DNA of 33,437 bases from a virus: positions 1 to 33,437 of IMG/VR virus record IMGVR_UViG_3300009545_000047; one strand, given 5' to 3'. Under the pieces are notes generated by a model. It made no database searches, was not told where the DNA came from, and saw nothing but the letters and a program-made list of their open reading frames with translations. Positions 3,499 through 28,561 of the stretch are shown here, piece by piece; position 1 is the stretch's first letter, and every line of letters starts with the position of its first letter. The position numbers and the translations under genes were made by a program.

Positions 3499-3617
3499 CC
3501 CGGCTCCGCGTATTCCTAGCCCAGCGCAGACTGGCCCGCATGCTCCGTCAAAACAAGGCGGCAGCAGAACGCTACCGGCGCAACCGCGCTGCTCAGCTCA
3601 ATCGGAGGACTGTATGA
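3495..3617 (+). CDS. Very small arginine-rich protein
   Basis: 40 residues, about a third arginine (MTRLRVFLAQRRLARMLRQN..., ending AAQLNRRTV). It starts in an ATGA overlap with the preceding gene with GGAG about 8 nt upstream, and its own stop overlaps the next start (ATGA). The coupling on both sides argues for a real gene. The basic amphipathic helix could bind RNA or DNA, as N-type antiterminators do, but nothing more specific can be claimed. Confidence 0.45.
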   Translation: MTRLRVFLAQRRLARMLRQNKAAAERYRRNRAAQLNRRTV

Positions 3618-3946
3618 ACCTCTCAGGAAAGGCGTGGACGCCAGAAGAAATGGCCAAGATGCATCAGTTCATCGCGGATGGCCTGACGCAGACTGAGGCA
3701 TCGACCAAGTTCCCAGGCAGGACGATTGCGGCTGCTGAGCGAAAGTACCGCAAGGTTCGCTTATCGATGGGAATCATTCCGACGCCTGCCGCTCCGCGTA
3801 TGCTGTACTGCAAGCAGACGGACGCTGAAGTAGAGGCGAGCGACACCGCATATTCCCGCTGGAGGTTACGCGACGCAAAGCGCGGTTGCCGCCTACTCAA
3901 AGAGGCGATGGACCAGTATTACGCCAACCATCAGCAGGCCGCCTAG
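3614..3946 (+). CDS. SANT/Myb- or GcrA-like DNA-binding protein
   Basis: 110 residues from the ATG at 3614, chosen because CGGAGG lies 6 nt upstream; a longer in-frame start at 3473 overlaps two other genes. Residues 5-45 (KAWTPEEMAKMHQFIADGLT, then KFPGRTIAAAERKYRKVRLS) show the W-T-EE-...-G-T--A...GRT--A---K--K pattern of SANT/GcrA-like HTH domains. The C-terminal half is helical and charged (YSRWRLRDAKRGCRLLKEAM). It probably binds DNA; the partner or target is unknown. Confidence 0.5.
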   Translation: MNLSGKAWTPEEMAKMHQFIADGLTQTEASTKFPGRTIAAAERKYRKVRLSMGIIPTPAAPRMLYCKQTDAEVEASDTAYSRWRLRDAKRGCRLLKEAMDQYYANHQQAA

Positions 3947-3948
3947 AC

Positions 3949-4311
3949 ATGGCGGGGGGCACAGACATTGTGGCGCTTCCGTGGCCCCCTAGGGAGCTAC
4001 ATCCGAACACTCGACCTCATCACATGCAGCGCGCACGGGCAGCGAAGGCCTATCGCACGGTAGCCTTTTGGGCGGCCGAGATGGCAGGAGTGAGCGCGCC
4101 CACTGACGGCGAGGTCATGCTGTCGGTGACATTCAACCCGCCAGACAATCGCAAGCGCGATCTGGACGGGATGTTTTCCGCAAGCAAGTCCGGCTTCGAC
4201 GGGATCGCGGATGCGCTCCAAGTCAACGACTATCGTTTTGCCTTCACCATCCGCCGCGCAGAACCGCTCAAGGGCGGTAAGGTAGTCGTATCGATCGGAG
4301 GTGCGCAATGA
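3949..4311 (+). CDS. rusA: RusA-family Holliday junction resolvase
   Basis: 120 residues, the normal length for RusA (about 120). The signature is clear: NPPDNRKRDLDGMFSASKSG (residues 63-82) with D71 and D73, then FDGIADALQVND with D94. These match the three catalytic aspartates known in E. coli RusA (D70, D72, D91). The N-terminal PWPPRELHPN is also typical. The enzyme binds four-way junctions as a dimer and cuts them symmetrically with magnesium, resolving recombination or replication intermediates before packaging. It lies between a DNA-binding gene and the DnaA-like gene and overlaps the latter by ATGA. Confidence 0.88.
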   Translation: MAGGTDIVALPWPPRELHPNTRPHHMQRARAAKAYRTVAFWAAEMAGVSAPTDGEVMLSVTFNPPDNRKRDLDGMFSASKSGFDGIADALQVNDYRFAFTIRRAEPLKGGKVVVSIGGAQ

Positions 4312-4724
4312 TCGCGCGCCGCACCAACCCGGCAGGCTGGACACCTCGCGTGGTCGTCGCCGCACCGGTCCCACGCGTTCGGGATTACATCATCATTGAG
4401 CCGGCGCCTTCTCCTGTTCGAACCATGCCCCAGGTCCATGCGATCAAGCACGCTGTCGCATCGCACTATGGCTTGCAGATGGCAGACATGGCGACGGCTA
4501 GCCGTAAGTACACAGTTTCGCACCCGCGCCAGCTAGCGATGTATCTCAGCCGAAAGCTGACCGATCGCTCCTATCCAGAGATCGGCCGACTGTTCGGCGG
4601 CAGGGACCACACCACCGTCATGCACGCCATCCGCCAAGTGGAAGCGAGGATGGCGAAGGATCAAGAAACCCGCGCTGTAGCTGACGCGATTATCGCTCAA
4701 TTCGGGGATGGTGCTAATGGGTAA
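4308..4724 (+). CDS. Free-standing DnaA domain IV (DnaA-box binding) protein
   Basis: 138 residues. Residues 68-115 match the C-terminal DNA-binding domain of the initiator DnaA: YTVSHPRQLAMYLSRKLTDR, then SYPEIGRLFGGRDHTTVMHA. The GGRDHTTV signature (97-104) is the loop-helix that reads DnaA boxes. Domains I-III are absent: there is no Walker motif and only about 65 residues of unrelated N-terminal sequence. It therefore cannot be a full initiator. It could bind DnaA boxes in the phage origin, compete with host DnaA at oriC, or serve as a regulator. It overlaps the resolvase (ATGA) and the methyltransferase (8 nt). Confidence 0.85.
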   Translation: MIARRTNPAGWTPRVVVAAPVPRVRDYIIIEPAPSPVRTMPQVHAIKHAVASHYGLQMADMATASRKYTVSHPRQLAMYLSRKLTDRSYPEIGRLFGGRDHTTVMHAIRQVEARMAKDQETRAVADAIIAQFGDGANG

Positions 4725-5241
4725 GCGCTCATCATTCGACCGCGTGCCGCGAGACTTTTACCCGACTCCGCGTGAAGCCGTTCTGCCGCTGTTGCCACAC
4801 CTATCTCCGCACACGCTGTTCGTGGAGCCGTGCGCCGGCAATGGGGCTCTAGTGGACGCCCTGATCGCCGCAGGGCATGTTTGCGCACGGGCATGGGATA
4901 TTGAGCCCCAGCGCGACGATATCGACCAGATCGACGCCTTGACGCGCTTGGTGGGCAATATCGATTGCTTCATCACCAATCCGCCTTGGGATCGTCGGGT
5001 TCTGCATCCGATGATCGAGCATTTCAGCGATCAGCATCCGACGTGGCTTCTGTTCGACGCCGATTGGCAGCACACCCGCCAGTCTGCTCCCTACCTCCCG
5101 CGCCTCCGCAAGATCGTGAGCGTTGGACGGGTCAAGTGGATTCCTGACAGCAAGATGACGGGCAAGGACAATTGCGCCTGGCACCTATTCGATCGCCCGT
5201 CTGACGCCGCCGCGCTATTCTACGGGAGGCTTGCCGCATGA
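4717..5241 (+). CDS. SAM-dependent DNA N6-adenine-type methyltransferase
   Basis: 174 residues. The ATG at 4717 is preferred because GGGG lies 9 nt upstream; an ATG at 4708 has no spacing to it. Motifs in order: FYPTP (residues 14-18, the N-terminal motif X region), the SAM-binding FVEPCAGNGAL (35-45), the acidic WDIEP (60-64) and the catalytic NPPW (88-91), as in amino-methyltransferases acting on adenine. The protein is short and has no obvious target-recognition domain, and no restriction partner is nearby. It probably marks phage DNA to evade host restriction or to time replication. Specificity cannot be read from sequence. Confidence 0.75.
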   Translation: MGKRSSFDRVPRDFYPTPREAVLPLLPHLSPHTLFVEPCAGNGALVDALIAAGHVCARAWDIEPQRDDIDQIDALTRLVGNIDCFITNPPWDRRVLHPMIEHFSDQHPTWLLFDADWQHTRQSAPYLPRLRKIVSVGRVKWIPDSKMTGKDNCAWHLFDRPSDAAALFYGRLAA

Positions 5242-5423
5242 CCCGCTACGAAGCGCTGATCCGCGCGGCCTCTAGGGACATGCTGGAAACTATCAACGCA
5301 AGCTGGTGGTCGCGCACGTCCTTCATCCCCCTGGAGACAATCCAAGGCTGGATAGCGGCACGTATCAAGGATCTAGACGATCAGGACATCATCCGGGCTC
5401 GGCCCGAGGTGGTGCCTGAGTGA
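5238..5423 (+). CDS. Small hypothetical acidic protein
   Basis: 61 residues (MTRYEALIRAASRDMLETIN..., with WIAARIKDLDDQDIIRARPE). The start overlaps the methyltransferase stop (ATGA) and its stop overlaps the following GTG start (GTGA). Mostly helical by eye, with no recognised domain. Its fixed place between methyltransferase and initiator suggests a small replication or DNA-modification accessory factor. Confidence 0.5.
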   Translation: MTRYEALIRAASRDMLETINASWWSRTSFIPLETIQGWIAARIKDLDDQDIIRARPEVVPE

Positions 5424-6076
5424 TCGCTGAGGCGCTCCGTCACATGCTGGCTGCTGGCATGCCCCACGAATCTATCGTGGCGGCAGTGGCAGACATGGAG
5501 GCGTCCATCGCCACCACAGATCCTGTGGCCGAGAAGCGCCGTGCCTATGACCGTGAGCGTAAGCGCCTTGCCAAGATTAATCATTCCACCGGAATTCCAC
5601 CGGAGTCCGCGGAAACCGCGGAATTGGTCCCCGTCCTTGATAAAGAAACGTCCCCCAGACCCCCTAAAGAAATTAATCCTACCCCCCGGGTTATATCCAC
5701 GCTCACGCGCAAGGCTGGCGGCTTTGGACCGCCGACTGATGTTGAGTTGGGCTTGTGGAATGAGTTCTGCGGGCAGCGAAAAAAACCACTCACGCAAAAC
5801 GCCTACTCAGCGATCCTCGCCAAGCTAGCCGAGGCGGCAGAGGCTGGCTGGCCGCCCGGCGACCTGTTTGTCCGCGCCCTGGAGGGCGGTTGGGAAACAA
5901 TCTTCGTACCGAAGGAATCGAAAAATGGGCGTTCAGGATCAAACAATTTGGCAGCGAGCAATCGGCAACGTGGTTCCGATCGGCAAGACGGCTTCCTCTC
6001 TGCCATCCGGCAAGCGGCCGATAGCTTCGGACCCAACGACTGCGGAGGAATGCCGCGCGCTTCGGGCTTGGGCTGA
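5420..6076 (+). CDS. Putative phage replication initiator / replisome organiser
   Basis: 218 residues from a GTG in a GTGA overlap. The N-terminal 30 residues (AEALRHMLAAGMPHESIVAA) and the basic stretch RAYDRERKRLAK resemble proteins found at this spot in alphaproteobacterial phages. A linker at residues 52-95 is rich in P, S, T and E, and a C-terminal helical domain follows (VELGLWNEFCGQRKKPLTQN; LFVRALEGGWETIFVP). Linker-plus-helical-domain layout, and repeats inside the gene (5583-5623), parallel lambda O. The role is inferred from layout and position, with no catalytic motif. The last 152 bases overlap the next gene in another frame. Confidence 0.5.
   Translation: MIAEALRHMLAAGMPHESIVAAVADMEASIATTDPVAEKRRAYDRERKRLAKINHSTGIPPESAETAELVPVLDKETSPRPPKEINPTPRVISTLTRKAGGFGPPTDVELGLWNEFCGQRKKPLTQNAYSAILAKLAEAAEAGWPPGDLFVRALEGGWETIFVPKESKNGRSGSNNLAASNRQRGSDRQDGFLSAIRQAADSFGPNDCGGMPRASGLG
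5583..5701 (+). repeat. Iteron-like tandem repeats, candidate replication origin
   Basis: Two abutting copies of an 11-mer, ATTCCACCGGA (5583-5593 and 5594-5604), are followed by CCGCGGAA at 5607-5614 and again at 5616-5623. Downstream is a stretch with AT-rich patches (TAAAGAAATTAAT, TTATAT) between C-runs, ending in ATATCCACG (5693-5701), which matches the DnaA box TTATCCACA at 7 of 9 positions. Everything lies inside the putative initiator gene, as lambda ori lies in gene O. Suggestive only. Confidence 0.4.
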
Positions 6077-6563
6077 GAACCTGCCGACGAGCGTTCCGGT
6101 TCCAGCGACCGAAGAGCAGGCTACCCGGCATCTGGCCTTCCTCGCCTCGACACTTCCGTCGAAGAACGTTGACGAGGCCGCCGGCCGCATGCGGTTCGCC
6201 GTGTACCTGAGCATGCTTCGAGGCTACAGCGACGCCGCGCTTGCCCACATGTCGCGCCGGGTCTGCGAGACGCTCGACTGGTTCCCAACACCGCACCAAT
6301 GCTTGGAACTGGCAGGCGAATACAGGCATGCGCCATCCGAACGGGTATTGGCGCTAGCGGCATGTAATCGGTTCGACCAACAGACGTTCGAGAACTGGAT
6401 CTTGTCGCTGTCTGATGGCGACGAACCGAACCTGGACGTTCCGCCATTCTGGATCGAAAGCGCGCTCACCCGAACACTGTTGCGCAAGCTGGATGACGGA
6501 ACCGTAGTCACCCGCGCCAAGTATCGGGCGATCAACCGTATCGACACGGCCGATGCCGCGTGA
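5925..6563 (+). CDS. Hypothetical replication-associated protein
   Basis: 212 residues from an ATG with GAAGGA 8 nt upstream, inside the end of the initiator gene. The N-terminal 45 residues are low complexity. A helical domain starts near residue 65 (PATEEQATRHLAFLASTLPS, YLSMLRGYSDAALAHMSRRV) and continues with CETLDWFPTPHQCLELAGEY. By position after an initiator it may be a helicase-loader or primosome partner (lambda P analogue), but no AAA+ motif is present and the role is inferred only. The stop overlaps the next gene. Confidence 0.5.
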   Translation: MGVQDQTIWQRAIGNVVPIGKTASSLPSGKRPIASDPTTAEECRALRAWAENLPTSVPVPATEEQATRHLAFLASTLPSKNVDEAAGRMRFAVYLSMLRGYSDAALAHMSRRVCETLDWFPTPHQCLELAGEYRHAPSERVLALAACNRFDQQTFENWILSLSDGDEPNLDVPPFWIESALTRTLLRKLDDGTVVTRAKYRAINRIDTADAA

Positions 6564-6750
6564 ATGGCCAAATCACGGGCACCCGCCGAGAGACAAAACC
6601 GCCCCTCTCGGCATCCGCTGGAAGAACGGCAAGGTATCCAAGCACACCTACACCGCTGGCCAGCTCATCTGGAGACTTCGCGGAGACGATCACGACGTAC
6701 TGACTTTCTGGCGAGTTAACGGACAGGACGATTTGGAGGAAGCGAGATGA
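6553..6750 (+). CDS. Small hypothetical basic protein
   Basis: 65 residues from an ATG 11 nt before the upstream stop. The sequence PLGIRWKNGKVSKHTYTAGQ, then LIWRLRGDDHDVLTFWRVNG reads like a compact strand-rich fold. The alternative frame from an ATG at 6564 is Arg/His-rich and less protein-like, so this frame is preferred. The stop overlaps the next start (ATGA). No family is recognised. Confidence 0.5.
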   Translation: MPREWPNHGHPPRDKTAPLGIRWKNGKVSKHTYTAGQLIWRLRGDDHDVLTFWRVNGQDDLEEAR

Positions 6751-6911
6751 CGGGAGCTAATATTAAGCAAGCGGTTGGCGGGGTAATGGTCTCTGCTCCT
6801 CTATTGATACCAGCGCTAGCGTTCGGTTGGAGATGGATTGTTCTGCTGCTGATAGTAGCTGCATTATGTGTGTGGGTTGTAGTTGGTATTTCACTACTTT
6901 CCGACGACTAA
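6747..6911 (+). CDS. Small two-helix membrane protein
   Basis: 54 residues from an ATG in an ATGA overlap, with GGAGG about 9 nt upstream. Almost the whole chain is hydrophobic: VGGVMVSAPLLIPALAFGW, then WIVLLLIVAALCVWVVVGI, with a short charged end (SDD). This predicts two closely spaced membrane helices. The local base composition is lower in GC than the neighbours. Possible roles are a holin-like or superinfection-exclusion protein; nothing discriminates between them. Confidence 0.5.
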   Translation: MTGANIKQAVGGVMVSAPLLIPALAFGWRWIVLLLIVAALCVWVVVGISLLSDD

Positions 6912-6934
6912 CTCATTTCAAAGGGTGGGGTATC

Positions 6935-7507
6935 ATGGCAAAGGCAAAAGCAGGCAGGAAGCGTAAAGCTGGCGAACGCACGGCATCAGGCCGCCTGCGC
7001 CAAGCCTATGACTACGGATGCGATGGGGTGCAGCGCCGCCGCGCTCTGTACGCACGCCCCGCCAATGATGACGGCAAGGTGGTAGAGGATCACACATTCG
7101 ACGCGATCGGTCGAGCCTGGTCCGCTGGCTTGCTCGAGATCGAGGGCAAGGACGCCGCTGCCATGCGTGATGCCGGCAGGGACTATGCAGCGCTGTTCTG
7201 GCGGATCTACGGCATTGGCAAGCACAAGGACAGCCTGTCCCGGTTCGTCGCCGGCAATGGTGGATCGGGTAGCAACGAGGAAGCGCTAGAAGCCGCGTTC
7301 AACGTGCGCAACGACGCCCTTCGTGCGCTCGGCCACAACATCAAGCTATGCGTGGAAAAGCTGTGCCTGGATGATCCAGACGGCAGCGACGCGGGGCCGA
7401 GCTGGCTTGACCGGATCATCTTCAGGACGCGCGGCGGAATCGCGATCGACCCGGCCGATAAAAATATTCTCGATTGTGCGATAAAGGGGCTTGCATGTTT
7501 CGTTTGA
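6935..7507 (+). CDS. Last early-operon protein, possible late regulator
   Basis: 190 residues. The start at 6935 is chosen for its position; the upstream in-frame region overlaps the membrane-protein gene. A very basic N-terminus (AKAKAGRKRKAGERTASGRL) is followed by a helical middle (AMRDAGRDYAALFWRIYGIG; EEALEAAFNVRNDALRALGH) and a C-terminal domain (KLCVEKLCLDDPDGSDAGPS). I do not recognise a family. The place, last gene before the early terminator and just upstream of packaging genes, is that of lambda Q or other late regulators, so late-gene control is a reasonable but unproven guess. Confidence 0.45.
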   Translation: MAKAKAGRKRKAGERTASGRLRQAYDYGCDGVQRRRALYARPANDDGKVVEDHTFDAIGRAWSAGLLEIEGKDAAAMRDAGRDYAALFWRIYGIGKHKDSLSRFVAGNGGSGSNEEALEAAFNVRNDALRALGHNIKLCVEKLCLDDPDGSDAGPSWLDRIIFRTRGGIAIDPADKNILDCAIKGLACFV

Positions 7508-7556: not shown

Positions 7557-7563
7557 ACTCAAG

Positions 7564-7597
7564 GGCTCGCCGGGAAACCGCGCGGGCCTTTTTCTTT
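7564..7597 (+). terminator. Rho-independent terminator of early operon
   Basis: GGCTCGCCGG, a GAAA tetraloop, then CCGCGCGGGCC form a ten-pair stem with one bulged C and one wobble, followed by TTTTTCTTT (7589-7597). It is placed to end early rightward transcription before the packaging genes. A second stable hairpin, GGGC-TTCG-GCCC, follows at 7598-7609. Reading through it would require antitermination or a separate late promoter. Confidence 0.75.
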
Positions 7598-7684
7598 GGG
7601 CTTCGGCCCGACCAGCAAGCGTCCATCCGGCGCAGACTCATCCTCCCTATGCTGGCCTCGCGGTACGGCACTGGATGACTTGCT

Positions 7685-7873
7685 GGGTTAATCGAGTGAC
7701 CGATATGTCAAAGAACGCGCGGAAGGCGATCGGCGGAAACATTCGCCGCGTAATCATCCGTGAGCGTGGCGACATTCGGATAAAGCTTGGACACATTATC
7801 GCGATGCGCGAGGCGGCAGACGCCACGTTAGGCGACGGCGGATCTGGCTTCTAGCCACATCGGGTTAATCGAG
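7685..7873 (+). repeat. Duplicated 12-bp element before two tiny genes
   Basis: GGGTTAATCGAG occurs at 7685-7696 and again at 7862-7873, 177 bp apart. Each copy is followed by TGACCGAT or TGAGCGAT and then a start codon within about 10-20 bp. The second copy adds AGG, improving the ribosome site. The repeat may be a shared translation-initiation or regulatory element, or the trace of a duplicated gene start. The stretch 7508-7704 holds no gene apart from the hairpins described. Confidence 0.45.
7705..7854 (+). CDS. Tiny basic protein
   Basis: 49 residues from ATG 7705 (an in-frame GTG at 7696 would add three). It reads MSKNARKAIGGNIRRVIIRE, then RGDIRIKLGHIIAMREAADA, so the N-terminal half is highly basic and helical. 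It follows the first copy of the GGGTTAATCGAG element. No family is recognised. Its position between the early terminator and the packaging module suggests an early-late switch or a packaging accessory role, without proof. Confidence 0.4.
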   Translation: MSKNARKAIGGNIRRVIIRERGDIRIKLGHIIAMREAADATLGDGGSGF

Positions 7874-8532: not shown

Positions 8533-9009
8533 ATGAGCCGTAAGCAGCGGATCGACAGCAATGCCGCCGCCGTGAAGGTCATGGGTTCGGCGCTGCGCAA
8601 ACTGGAGCCGCCGGCTCACGTTCGGATGCAGGAAGGCGATTGGCCGTTCTGGCATTCGGTGATCGCGGAGTTCGCACGGAGCGAGTGGACGGACCACCAG
8701 CTTGAGCTAGCCGCGATGCTGGCGCGGGCGATGGCGGATCTGGAGCGCGAGCAATACGACCTGAGGGCTGAGGGCTCGGTGATGAAATCCGAGAAGGGTA
8801 CTCCGGTGGTCAACCCACGGAAGCAAGTTGTCCAGATGCTCGCCGGCACGATCCTGTCGATGCGCCGCAGTTTGTCGCTTCACGCACGCGCGCAAGGGGG
8901 TGAGGCGCGGGACGTTGGCAAGCGACGGGGCCAGGCGAAAGAGATCGAGGCGGACAATCCGCTAGAGCAAGACGAAGGGCTGTTGGCGAGGCCGCAGACC
9001 TATAACTGA
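8533..9009 (+). CDS. terS: Terminase small subunit
   Basis: 158 residues from ATG 8533. The sequence MSRKQRIDSNAAAVKVMGSA, the helical middle (WTDHQLELAAMLARAMADLE; YDLRAEGSVMKSEKGTPVVN) and the tail (MLAGTILSMRRSLSLHARAQ) fit the P27-type small terminases: a DNA-binding head, then the conserved G-x-P-x-x-NP segment and a helical oligomerisation part. It forms a ring that recognises the packaging site and stimulates the large subunit. The gene immediately precedes terL (one-base overlap of stop and start), as in HK97-like phages. Confidence 0.75.
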   Translation: MSRKQRIDSNAAAVKVMGSALRKLEPPAHVRMQEGDWPFWHSVIAEFARSEWTDHQLELAAMLARAMADLEREQYDLRAEGSVMKSEKGTPVVNPRKQVVQMLAGTILSMRRSLSLHARAQGGEARDVGKRRGQAKEIEADNPLEQDEGLLARPQTYN

Positions 9010-10502
9010 TGACCCGAGGTGAGCGTGTCGTCGCCTTCATCGAACGCTATTGCCTAGTCCCCGAGGGCGCCAAGGTCGGTAAGCCGATCGTGCTAGCGAG
9101 GTTTCAGCGTAACTTTATTCTGGCGATCTACGATGCACCCAGGAAGGTGCGCCGCGCCTATCTCGCGATTGCCCGTAAGAACGGCAAGTCAGCGCTGATT
9201 GCCTGTATCTTGCTCGCCCATCTGGTCGGGCCGGAAGCGCAGTTGAACAGCCAGATCGTTTCCGGCGCCCGATCGCGGGAGCAGGCGGCGGTCGTGTTCA
9301 ATCTTGCCGCGAAGATGGTGCAGCTATCGCCGGACTTGCGGAAGCTGGTTCGCATCGTTCCCTCGGGCAAGCGCCTGATCGGTTTGACGATGAACACCGA
9401 ATACAAGGCGCTGGCAGCCGAGGGAACGACAGCCCACGGCCTTAGTCCGGTCCTGGCGATTCTCGATGAGGTTGGCCAGGTCAAAGGGCCGCAAGACGAT
9501 TTCATTGACGCGATCACGACGGCACAGGGTGCCCACGAGGACCCGCTGCTGATCGCGATCTCTACGCAGGCGCCGACTGACGGCGATCTGTTCTCGATAT
9601 GGCTGGACGATGCCGAGCGGTCGGCTGATCCCGGCATTGTAAGTCATGTCTATACGGCCCCCGAGGGCTGCGAGGTTGACGACGAAACGGCCTGGGCAGC
9701 GGCTAACCCCGCGCTCGGCCTGTTCCGCTCGCTGGAGGATGTGAAGGAACAGGCGGCGCAAGCGAAGCGCATGCCGTCGTCAGAGAATACGTTTCGCGTG
9801 CTGACGCTTAACCAGCGCGTGAACATGATTTCGCCGTTCGTGTCGGCGTCCGTATGGAAGGCGGGCAACGAGGCGGCGGCGGATTGGGATGGCTCCCCGA
9901 TGTACGGGGGGTTGGACCTTTCGGCCACGACCGACTTGACGGCCCTTGTGCTGACGCAGCGCCAATCTGGCGTAGTGATGGTGCAGCCGCATTTCTGGAT
10001 GCCGGAAGCAAGCGTTGCAGCGGCGGCGAAGCGGGACCGGGCACCATACGACGTTTGGGTGCGCGATGGGTTCATCCGTACCACGCCGGGCTCGGTGATC
10101 GATTACGCATTCGTAGCGCAAGACGTGGCTAACATCTGCGCCGGCCTGCCGCTGCGCAAGCTGGCGTTTGACCGCTGGCGGATGGACCGGCTGAAAGGCG
10201 AGTTGGACAAGATCGGGGTCGAACTACCGTTGGAAGAATTCGGCCAAGGGTATCAATCAATGAGCCCGGCGCTCGATGCGCTTGAGGCGGACCTGTTGCA
10301 GGAACGGGTGCGGCACGGGGGTCATCCCGCTTTGGCGATGTGTGCTGCGAACGCTGTGGTTACGCGCGATCCTGCGGGAAATCGGAAACTGGACAAGGGC
10401 AAAGCTACCGGCCGCATTGACGGCATGGTCGCCCTGGCAATGGCGGAAGGGGTTGAGGCGATGGCGCACGAAATCCCTGCCGGGGTCCAGATTTTCGTAT
10501 GA
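9009..10502 (+). CDS. terL: Terminase large subunit
   Basis: 497 residues, normal for the HK97/lambda-type family. ATPase: Walker A-like ARKNGKS (55-61), Walker B LAILDE (149-154) and coupling motif STQAP (185-189). Nuclease: GLDLSATTDL with D303 as first acidic residue, then AFDRW and GRIDGMVALAMA carrying later ones. The enzyme cuts concatemers at the packaging site and pumps DNA into the prohead. It overlaps the small terminase by one base and the portal by four. A long antisense frame here is a shadow. Confidence 0.93.
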   Translation: MTRGERVVAFIERYCLVPEGAKVGKPIVLARFQRNFILAIYDAPRKVRRAYLAIARKNGKSALIACILLAHLVGPEAQLNSQIVSGARSREQAAVVFNLAAKMVQLSPDLRKLVRIVPSGKRLIGLTMNTEYKALAAEGTTAHGLSPVLAILDEVGQVKGPQDDFIDAITTAQGAHEDPLLIAISTQAPTDGDLFSIWLDDAERSADPGIVSHVYTAPEGCEVDDETAWAAANPALGLFRSLEDVKEQAAQAKRMPSSENTFRVLTLNQRVNMISPFVSASVWKAGNEAAADWDGSPMYGGLDLSATTDLTALVLTQRQSGVVMVQPHFWMPEASVAAAAKRDRAPYDVWVRDGFIRTTPGSVIDYAFVAQDVANICAGLPLRKLAFDRWRMDRLKGELDKIGVELPLEEFGQGYQSMSPALDALEADLLQERVRHGGHPALAMCAANAVVTRDPAGNRKLDKGKATGRIDGMVALAMAEGVEAMAHEIPAGVQIFV

Positions 10503-11776: not shown

Positions 11777-12494
11777 CGCCCGAAAGGGCGAGTTTCGCGC
11801 GGAAGGCAACACCCTCTACCTGTACGACGTGATCGTCTCGTCCAAGGCCGATGCTGAGTGGCTCGGCGGCGTGGACGCGGAAACGTTCGTTCAGACCCTT
11901 CGCGATATGTCGGGTGACGTGACTGTGCGGGTCAATTCGCCGGGCGGTGACGTGTTCGCCGGCCGCGCGATGGCCCAGGCTATCCGCGACTATCCCGGCG
12001 AGGTGACGGTCCACGTGGACGGCTATGCGGCTTCCGCTGCGTCGTTCGTGACAGCGGCGGCCGATAAGGTCGTCATGGGGCAGGGGTCATTTCAGATGAT
12101 CCACAATGCCTGGACTATCGCGCTCGGCAACGCAGAAGAATTGCTGGCAACGGCGGATCTTCTGGAGAAGATCGACGGAACTATCGTGGAAACCTACGTT
12201 TCTGCGGCCGATCGGCGCGGAAAGGCGGTCGATGGCGCCAAGTTCGCCGAGTTGATGGCGGCGGAAACGTGGCTGACCGGCCAAGAGTCGATCGACCTTG
12301 GGCTTGCCGACGAACTGGCCAGCGATGCGCCCAAGGGCAAAATCGCGTGGGATATGAGCGCGTACAATACCGCGCCGGAAGCAATCACTGAACAACCCAA
12401 AATCGAAGCGGAGCCGATTGTCGAGCCCGCCAAAGAAATCGAGCAGCCGAAGCCGAATTACGCGGCGGACATGCTGCTCCGACCCGCTCCCTAG
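11745..12494 (+). CDS. ClpP-type prohead protease
   Basis: 249 residues from the ATG at 11745, which has GGAGAG upstream; the longer frame start lies deep in the portal gene. It has the ClpP/crotonase fold: VRVNSPGGDVFAGRAMAQAI (62-80), the nucleophile GYAASAAS with S97, and the MIHNAW histidine H120. These match the Ser-His pair of phage ClpP-like head maturation proteases. The C-terminal 50 residues are rich in E, P and K and may be a scaffold-like or targeting tail. It cleaves the capsid delta domain and itself during maturation. Followed by a strong hairpin before the capsid gene. Confidence 0.9.
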   Translation: MRQLINLLRNNARKGEFRAEGNTLYLYDVIVSSKADAEWLGGVDAETFVQTLRDMSGDVTVRVNSPGGDVFAGRAMAQAIRDYPGEVTVHVDGYAASAASFVTAAADKVVMGQGSFQMIHNAWTIALGNAEELLATADLLEKIDGTIVETYVSAADRRGKAVDGAKFAELMAAETWLTGQESIDLGLADELASDAPKGKIAWDMSAYNTAPEAITEQPKIEAEPIVEPAKEIEQPKPNYAADMLLRPAP

Positions 12495-27622: not shown

Positions 27623-28561
27623 ATGTTGCCGATGGGGCGGATTCAATCGGTGCAGATATTGCGGTTCGTTGCAGCGGTAATGGTAGTCTTGCTGCACGCA
27701 TCTCCTAATTTTGGCATTGGTGCTGCTGGGGTAGATATATTTTTCGTTATCTCTGGCTTCATCATCGCTCGGGCATCTGCCGGAAAGAACGTAGAAGCCT
27801 TCATCGCAGATCGAGTGCGGCGGATATATCCGATCTATTGGCTCGCCGCATTGCCGATGAGCATCGCGATTATACATGTGGAAGGGTTCAAACTATCGCG
27901 CGTGCTGACGAGTTTGATGCTCTTGCCCATTTTTGGTGGATCGCCTCGGCCTTATCTCGCCGTGGCTTGGACGCTATGCTTCGAAGTTTTCTTTTATGCC
28001 GCCTTCGCAGTATTCCTGTGGTGGAGGGCAACTTGGAAGGGGTTATTGGTCTGTTATTTTGTCGTCTTGATAATCGGCTTGATATCACGATGGCACCCCG
28101 CCACCTTTTTCGGAAGCCCGATCATAATCGAATTCGGATTAGGTGTGTTGCTAACTAGACTGAGGGCGGTGGGGGAATGGGCGGGGCTATGCCTGATAGT
28201 TGCGGGCGCTATCGTCATCATCGCGACTGCACCCTGGTCAATTCCCATGGGCATGTCGTTCTGGCTTGGCCTTGGTGCGCTGGCTAGAGTAGTATTTTGG
28301 GGACTGCCGGCCGCAGCGATATTGTTCGGTGCACTTCAATTGGAGGTGCGGACGATCGGTCGAGTGGGATCGATATTCGCCTATTTGGGCGATGCGTCTT
28401 ATTCGATCTACCTAACACATTACTTTCCGGTGCTGGTGATGGCATGGCTGATGCCTGGTCCGGTAGCGGCATTCGTCGCCGTGTTTTTCGGTGTTGGCGT
28501 CCATCGCTATATCGAGGTGCCCTTATTGAAGCTGATTGGCCGCAGCCGACCAGCCCCCTAG
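27623..28561 (+). CDS. Membrane acyltransferase (OafA/acyltransferase-3 family)
   Basis: 312 residues, slightly short for the family. Motifs: RIQSVQILRFVAAVMVVLLH-A with the catalytic-type histidine near residue 26, then GVDIFFVISGFIIARAS, the basic DRVRRIYPIYWLAALP, and C-terminal SYSIYLTHYFPVLVMAWLM. About nine to ten membrane helices. Such enzymes O-acylate surface polysaccharide; in temperate phages they alter receptors (serotype conversion) and block superinfection. It is a cargo gene between tail and lysis modules, with GC near 50% at its start versus about 60% around it. An ATG at 27632 is an alternative start. Confidence 0.85.
   Translation: MLPMGRIQSVQILRFVAAVMVVLLHASPNFGIGAAGVDIFFVISGFIIARASAGKNVEAFIADRVRRIYPIYWLAALPMSIAIIHVEGFKLSRVLTSLMLLPIFGGSPRPYLAVAWTLCFEVFFYAAFAVFLWWRATWKGLLVCYFVVLIIGLISRWHPATFFGSPIIIEFGLGVLLTRLRAVGEWAGLCLIVAGAIVIIATAPWSIPMGMSFWLGLGALARVVFWGLPAAAILFGALQLEVRTIGRVGSIFAYLGDASYSIYLTHYFPVLVMAWLMPGPVAAFVAVFFGVGVHRYIEVPLLKLIGRSRPAP

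Follow-up and report, generated by a model that had tools for sequence, protein, structure and literature searches.

What use would a phage have for the DNA-reading domain of the bacterial initiator DnaA if the rest of DnaA is missing? The question is raised by IMG/VR record IMGVR_UViG_3300009545_000047, positions 1 to 33,437, a virus DNA of 33,437 bp that is referred to here in its entirety as the window. From the letters alone, one of its genes had been predicted to encode DnaA domain IV without the ATPase, next to a possible replication origin, and its product was proposed either to load host replication factors on phage DNA or to displace host DnaA. The features discussed below are collected in Table 1, and genomes and loci compared with the window are given by L numbers.

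Table 1. Coordinates of the features at the DnaA-IV locus of the window
Feature	Position	Strand	Basis or remark
RusA-like Holliday junction resolvase gene, immediately preceding DnaA-IV	3949-4311	+	phrog_34, E 2.2e-20
DnaA domain IV-only protein (DnaA-IV)	4308-4724	+	138 aa; Pfam PF08299, 1J1V match, dN/dS
DNA methyltransferase-like gene, directly downstream of DnaA-IV	4717-5241	+	phrog_799, E 2.7e-35
61-aa gene	5238-5423	+	92-98% identical in L003 and L004
O-like replication initiator gene	5420-6076	+	phrog_678, E 2.4e-8 over second half
Phage-specific repeats, putative initiator sites	5583-5627		two ATTCCACCGGA copies followed by an inverted pair of TTCCGCGG type
45-bp conserved DNA core of putative origin	5636-5680		~21 contigs, two frames, low duplex stability
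ATATCCACG, 7-of-9 DnaA-box-like site	5693-5701	+	rejected as chance

A phage gene for domain IV of DnaA

The Pfam family Bac_DnaA_C (PF08299) matched residues 44 to 111 of the 138-aa protein (E 1.2e-28), and the Pfam scan returned no other domain, with AAA+ domain III and domain I both absent. The protein also contains the motif GGRDHTTV, and its description in the original prediction as a domain IV lacking domains I to III was confirmed. The model TIGR00362 aligned only at positions 345 to 435 of 437, with a score far below its cut-off. Domain IV spans residues 43 to 117 (approximately 4434 to 4658 of the window), and the best PDB match by sequence was E. coli DnaA domain IV (1J1V; 38% identity). 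Structure prediction, which had been suggested as a check, gave the same answer: the AlphaFold model (pLDDT 90) fitted 1J1V with an rmsd of 0.6 Å and a TM score of 0.97 (by target length). Residues 1 to 42 are a conserved tail in which no helix or strand was predicted, and an extra C-terminal helix follows the domain at residues 119 to 135. The ATG of the ORF overlaps the stop of the RusA-like gene. Genome-contig matches to the protein proved to be host DnaA and not phage genes. Some long ORFs carrying DnaA-IV resembled fusions, but many of these were early alternative starts in GC-rich DNA.

The window protein keeps the equivalents of all four base-contact residues that we checked, R399, D433, H434, and T435 (E. 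coli numbering); D433 and H434 contact bases in the 1J1V complex. R399 and T435 have been cited as DnaA base-contact residues (PMC9638019). The scan that yielded the first 63 viral relatives was partly seeded with the peptide DHTTVMHA, which biases the DHTT conservation seen among them. Among the 16 distinct relatives found without this peptide, D433 and H434 were invariant and R399 was kept in 15; at the T435 position, 11 have T and 5 have S or A. Comparison of the gene with its nearest relative, that of L003 (76% identical), gave a dN/dS of 0.21 overall, with 0.17 for domain IV and 0.19 for the tail. The ORF is a selected gene with a seemingly intact DNA reader, and we infer that its product should still read canonical DnaA boxes.

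The window protein is like bacterial DnaA domain IV in its fold, its sequence, and the four contact residues but differs from bacterial DnaA in lacking domains I to III; it therefore has no ATPase, forms no oligomer, and cannot load the helicase in the DnaA manner. Like it, the small alphaproteobacterial HdaB/GafY and the GafA N terminus consist essentially of a DnaA-IV-like domain. The protein first named HdaB was thought to act on DnaA control and was later found to be GafY (PMC9632790, PMC11150451); its renaming as a gene transfer agent activator cautions against assuming a replication role for the DnaA-IV protein. GafY and the GafA N terminus activate gene transfer agent genes (PMC9632790, PMC11150451, PMC9638019), and the window protein might similarly employ the domain IV fold to bind DNA and switch promoters of the phage or the host, possibly together with a partner, a role that its early-operon position would suit. 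We regard such a regulator as unlikely here. The window protein scored 106.9 bits with the DnaA model but 30.5 bits with the best of the PRK06030-type small-protein models, which we assumed to cover HdaB/GafY and whose cut-off is 136. Moreover, it keeps R399 and T435 where GafA has E8 and S43, and a Pfam scan of the genes from 3617 to 7507 detected no GafZ-like partner (DUF6456), either fused or adjacent.

Solitary DnaA-IV proteins are already annotated as "DnaA-like" in several phages, with the same domain beside replication genes: RHph_N28_2 and RHph_TM3_3_3 (Rhizobium), AmM-1 (Aurantimonas), ctOK67, and BiPBO1 (ORF77), in which the DnaA-like product was noted (PMC4729917). Their domains are 37 to 49% identical to that of the window protein (BiPBO1 lay outside this comparison), and some of the proteins are larger, that of AmM-1 reaching approximately 396 aa. 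In the full-text literature, with few subscription papers covered, we found phage-coded DnaA-IV proteins studied for function only within gene transfer agent work.

A putative in-gene origin and its conserved core

The proposed origin had been placed about 1 kb downstream of the DnaA-IV gene, inside a putative initiator gene, on the strength of tandem repeats and a DnaA-box-like site. The gene at 5420 to 6076 does match phrog_678, replication initiation O-like, in agreement with that assignment. The usual N-terminal domain of the O-like initiator went unrecognized, since the profile matched from position 202 on only, and the AlphaFold model of the protein (pLDDT 62) was too poor for a fold search. 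The tandem repeats were confirmed as two perfect 11-bp copies of ATTCCACCGGA at 5583 to 5604.

The box-like site is present but could not be upheld as a DnaA box. Sites with two or fewer mismatches to the DnaA box numbered 54 in the window, compared with 47.8 expected from shuffles; ATATCCACG itself occurs four times; and neither L003 nor L004, the nearest relatives, has the site at the corresponding position. The exact box TTATCCACA is absent from the 33,437-bp window, and the two one-mismatch sites, at 12097 and 19571, are far from 5693 to 5701. Likewise, the surroundings of phage DnaA-IV genes, 0.66 Mb in all, held no clear excess of TTATCCACA and its one-mismatch variants over permuted 9-mers in counts that weak or degenerate sites would escape; 12 to 15% of the permutations scored as high. 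An early count of 4 exact boxes against 0.9 expected proved to be at chance level once compared with permuted 9-mers. Near origins, carriers of the DnaA-IV gene did not differ from noncarriers in their DnaA boxes.

The repeats at 5583 to 5627 are nearly identical in L167, and related phages carry other repeat sequences at the corresponding place, where L003 and L004 have no copy of ATTCCACCGGA. Examples upstream of the core are CGTCAC, present six times in L159, and TCCGCA, present four times in L164. The number of repeated 6-mers exceeded that of all of approximately 400 control segments at 5 of 15 loci and was not above chance in the window's own origin copy. The repeats are putative, candidate sites for binding of the initiator.

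Directly behind the repeats, the initiator genes share a short element at the DNA level. The initiators of the window and L004 are only approximately 42% identical over 98 aa, yet a 63-bp DNA stretch is 98% identical. Scans of IMG/VR with a core pattern (CTTGATAAAGAAA, two C-rich blocks, and AAAGAAATTAA) located the core in mid-gene in initiator-like genes of approximately 21 contigs, uncultured or prophage; 11 of the hits from a less strict scan proved to be unrelated DNA and were discarded. The element was absent from INPHARED phages, PLSDB plasmids, and 385 genomes of the class of L080. Third positions carried G or C in 4 to 6 of 15 codons inside the core, compared with fractions of 0.57 to 0.79 in the flanks. 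L183, L187, and L191 translate the core nucleotides in a different frame (L183, for instance, encodes FPQTPFKEIKP where the window encodes SPRPPKEINP), and the C-terminal modules behind the core match different families, namely O-like, primosomal, and DnaD-like. Low third-position G+C content, two reading frames, and differing C-terminal modules together suggest that the core DNA itself is under selection.

The lambda origin lies in an initiator gene, with mid-gene repeats followed by an unstable stretch. The window is similar, with candidate repeats ahead of an unstable stretch: in the core at 5663, a stretch ranks 23 of 33,422 in the window for low duplex stability. The cumulative GC-skew minimum, at 6669, is 1 kb from the core. 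The window differs from the lambda-O type in sequence and in having a core that is common to phages with different C-terminal modules. We infer that 5583 to 5680 is a putative lambda-type in-gene origin without DnaA boxes and that the core is probably a phage origin in its own right. Of the predicted origin, the position inside the neighboring initiator gene is well supported, now on the basis of phage-specific repeats and a conserved core; a DnaA box as its foundation is not.

The core alone might instead be a recombination joint at which initiator genes exchange their halves. The C-terminal halves do change right behind it, and the window and L167 are alike before the core and unlike after it, whereas L167 and L004 are alike after it. 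However, a joint would need neither the upstream repeats that surpass all controls at a third of the loci nor an unstable stretch with a GC-skew minimum nearby, and we consider it improbable that the core is a joint and not an origin, although the two roles can coexist. No description of the 45-bp element was found in the full-text literature, with few subscription papers covered. The core offers a specific candidate replication origin in a phage group that is largely uncultured, and it points to a way in which initiator genes could swap domains yet keep their origin.

Candidate targets of the DnaA-IV protein

If the origin is without DnaA boxes, does the DnaA-IV protein nevertheless serve it? 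The protein could be an origin accessory that binds near the O-type origin, with its N-terminal tail or C-terminal helix helping the initiator to open DNA or recruit host helicase. In 8 of approximately 19 loci found by the DNA element alone, no more than 1 kb separates the core from a DnaA-IV gene upstream of it (the window, L004, L153, L155, L156, L158, L162, and L165). DUF1376 adjoins DnaA-IV in two Rhizobium phages, and the neighbors of DnaA-IV elsewhere include a "DNA replication protein" (Leeuwenhoekiella phage), a replisome organizer (ctOK67), and a primase (AmM-1). Purifying selection on the tail would also agree with an accessory role. Against it, L167 resembles the window in its RusA (92%), its methyltransferase (81%), the first part of its initiator, and its repeats, yet no DnaA-IV gene was found in its 38,380-bp record, where the methyltransferase directly follows RusA. 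The gene is therefore not required for a lambda-type origin with the core. Conversely, in L003 the DnaA-IV and 61-aa genes persist with a DnaD/O-like initiator of another type. The 11-bp repeat was rejected as the target of the DnaA-IV protein on the same comparison, as it is absent from the carriers L003 and L004 and present in the noncarrier L167. These comparisons and the lack of a DnaA-box excess near the origins of carriers weaken the idea that the protein binds the phage repeats.

The distribution of the gene also bears on this question. DnaA-IV relatives are spread over phages whose initiators are of O, DnaD, or primosomal type and, beside MuB, over Mu-like phages: MuB lies 0.3 to 3 kb upstream of the DnaA-IV gene in 11 of 50 viral records, and Pfam confirmed MuB in four of these 11, also detecting MuA in L012 and Gam in L010. 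Because phages of the Mu type use transposition to replicate, one shared job at a phage origin is unlikely. Given this and the evidence from L167, L003, and the box counts, we rate the origin accessory as rather doubtful.

The lack of a box excess in the window, in viral DnaA-IV loci, and at carrier origins makes targets on phage DNA improbable. An intact reader that has no DnaB-loading domains and that is carried by phages with differing replication modes fits action on host boxes, and such phages, the Mu-like ones included, have no common origin but do have a common host. Our favored but tentative explanation, possible though short of probable, is that the DnaA-IV protein acts in trans on host DnaA boxes. 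A phage early gene would supply DnaA domain IV alone, while phage replication would start at the in-gene O-type origin, served by the O-like initiator and without DnaA boxes. The DnaA-IV protein would target DnaA boxes of the host chromosome, at oriC and at DnaA-controlled promoters, and would occupy them while itself carrying neither the ATPase domain nor domain I, which binds DnaB. Host DnaA activity might then be damped or shifted at a time when phage DNA synthesis draws on the host's replication proteins.

The prophage protein YfdR, which interferes with DnaA by another route, is a precedent for phage interference (PMC4776307). The strong linkage to initiator and origin at 8 of approximately 19 loci suggests a more local job and speaks against host boxes as the target. 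By analogy, so does GafY, a protein of the same fold that activates transcription and binds a site other than a DnaA box. Among the readings, the proposed displacement of host DnaA is nevertheless the one that the evidence contradicts least. In a broader and distinctly speculative form, which we think rather unlikely, unrelated temperate and transposable phages would repeatedly have kept domain IV as a host-box decoy; in one group, the gene would travel with an in-gene origin whose 45-bp core is fixed while initiator domains are exchanged. If the DnaA-IV protein does compete with host DnaA, phages would have a ready-made means of controlling host initiation, in the form of a copy of the DNA-reading part of the initiator itself.

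Neighboring genes and other conserved stretches

The 61-aa gene stays adjacent to the DnaA-IV gene in both L003 and L004, whereas the methyltransferase-like gene is missing at the corresponding place in L003. In Mu-like phages, the DnaA-IV proteins of L010 (5638 to 6750) and L019 (5580 to 6335) have an extended C-terminal part with a four-cysteine, zinc-finger-like motif at its end.

Several stretches outside the locus were also conserved. The 42 bp at 6902 to 6943, ahead of the gene at 6935, match L003 exactly over 39 bp and are 98% identical in L004; the genes behind them differ between phages, and the stretch is perhaps a shared leader or regulatory site. The segment at 7559 to 7696 is 78 to 80% conserved in L003 and L004 and has a G+C-rich hairpin-like part, no convincing gene, and no match in Rfam; Rfam and tRNA scans found nothing. 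Two stretches, 6 to 114 (109 bp) and 1406 to 1454 (49 bp), are 100% identical to L003 in diverged surroundings, suggesting mosaic exchange. The large terminase (9009 to 10502) is approximately 60% identical to HK022-type coliphage terminases, whereas the early region resembles phages of alphaproteobacteria. Finally, a membrane protein gene at 27623 to 28561, between the tail and lysis genes, appears by eye to belong to the acyltransferase-3 family and is possibly an extra surface-modifying gene.
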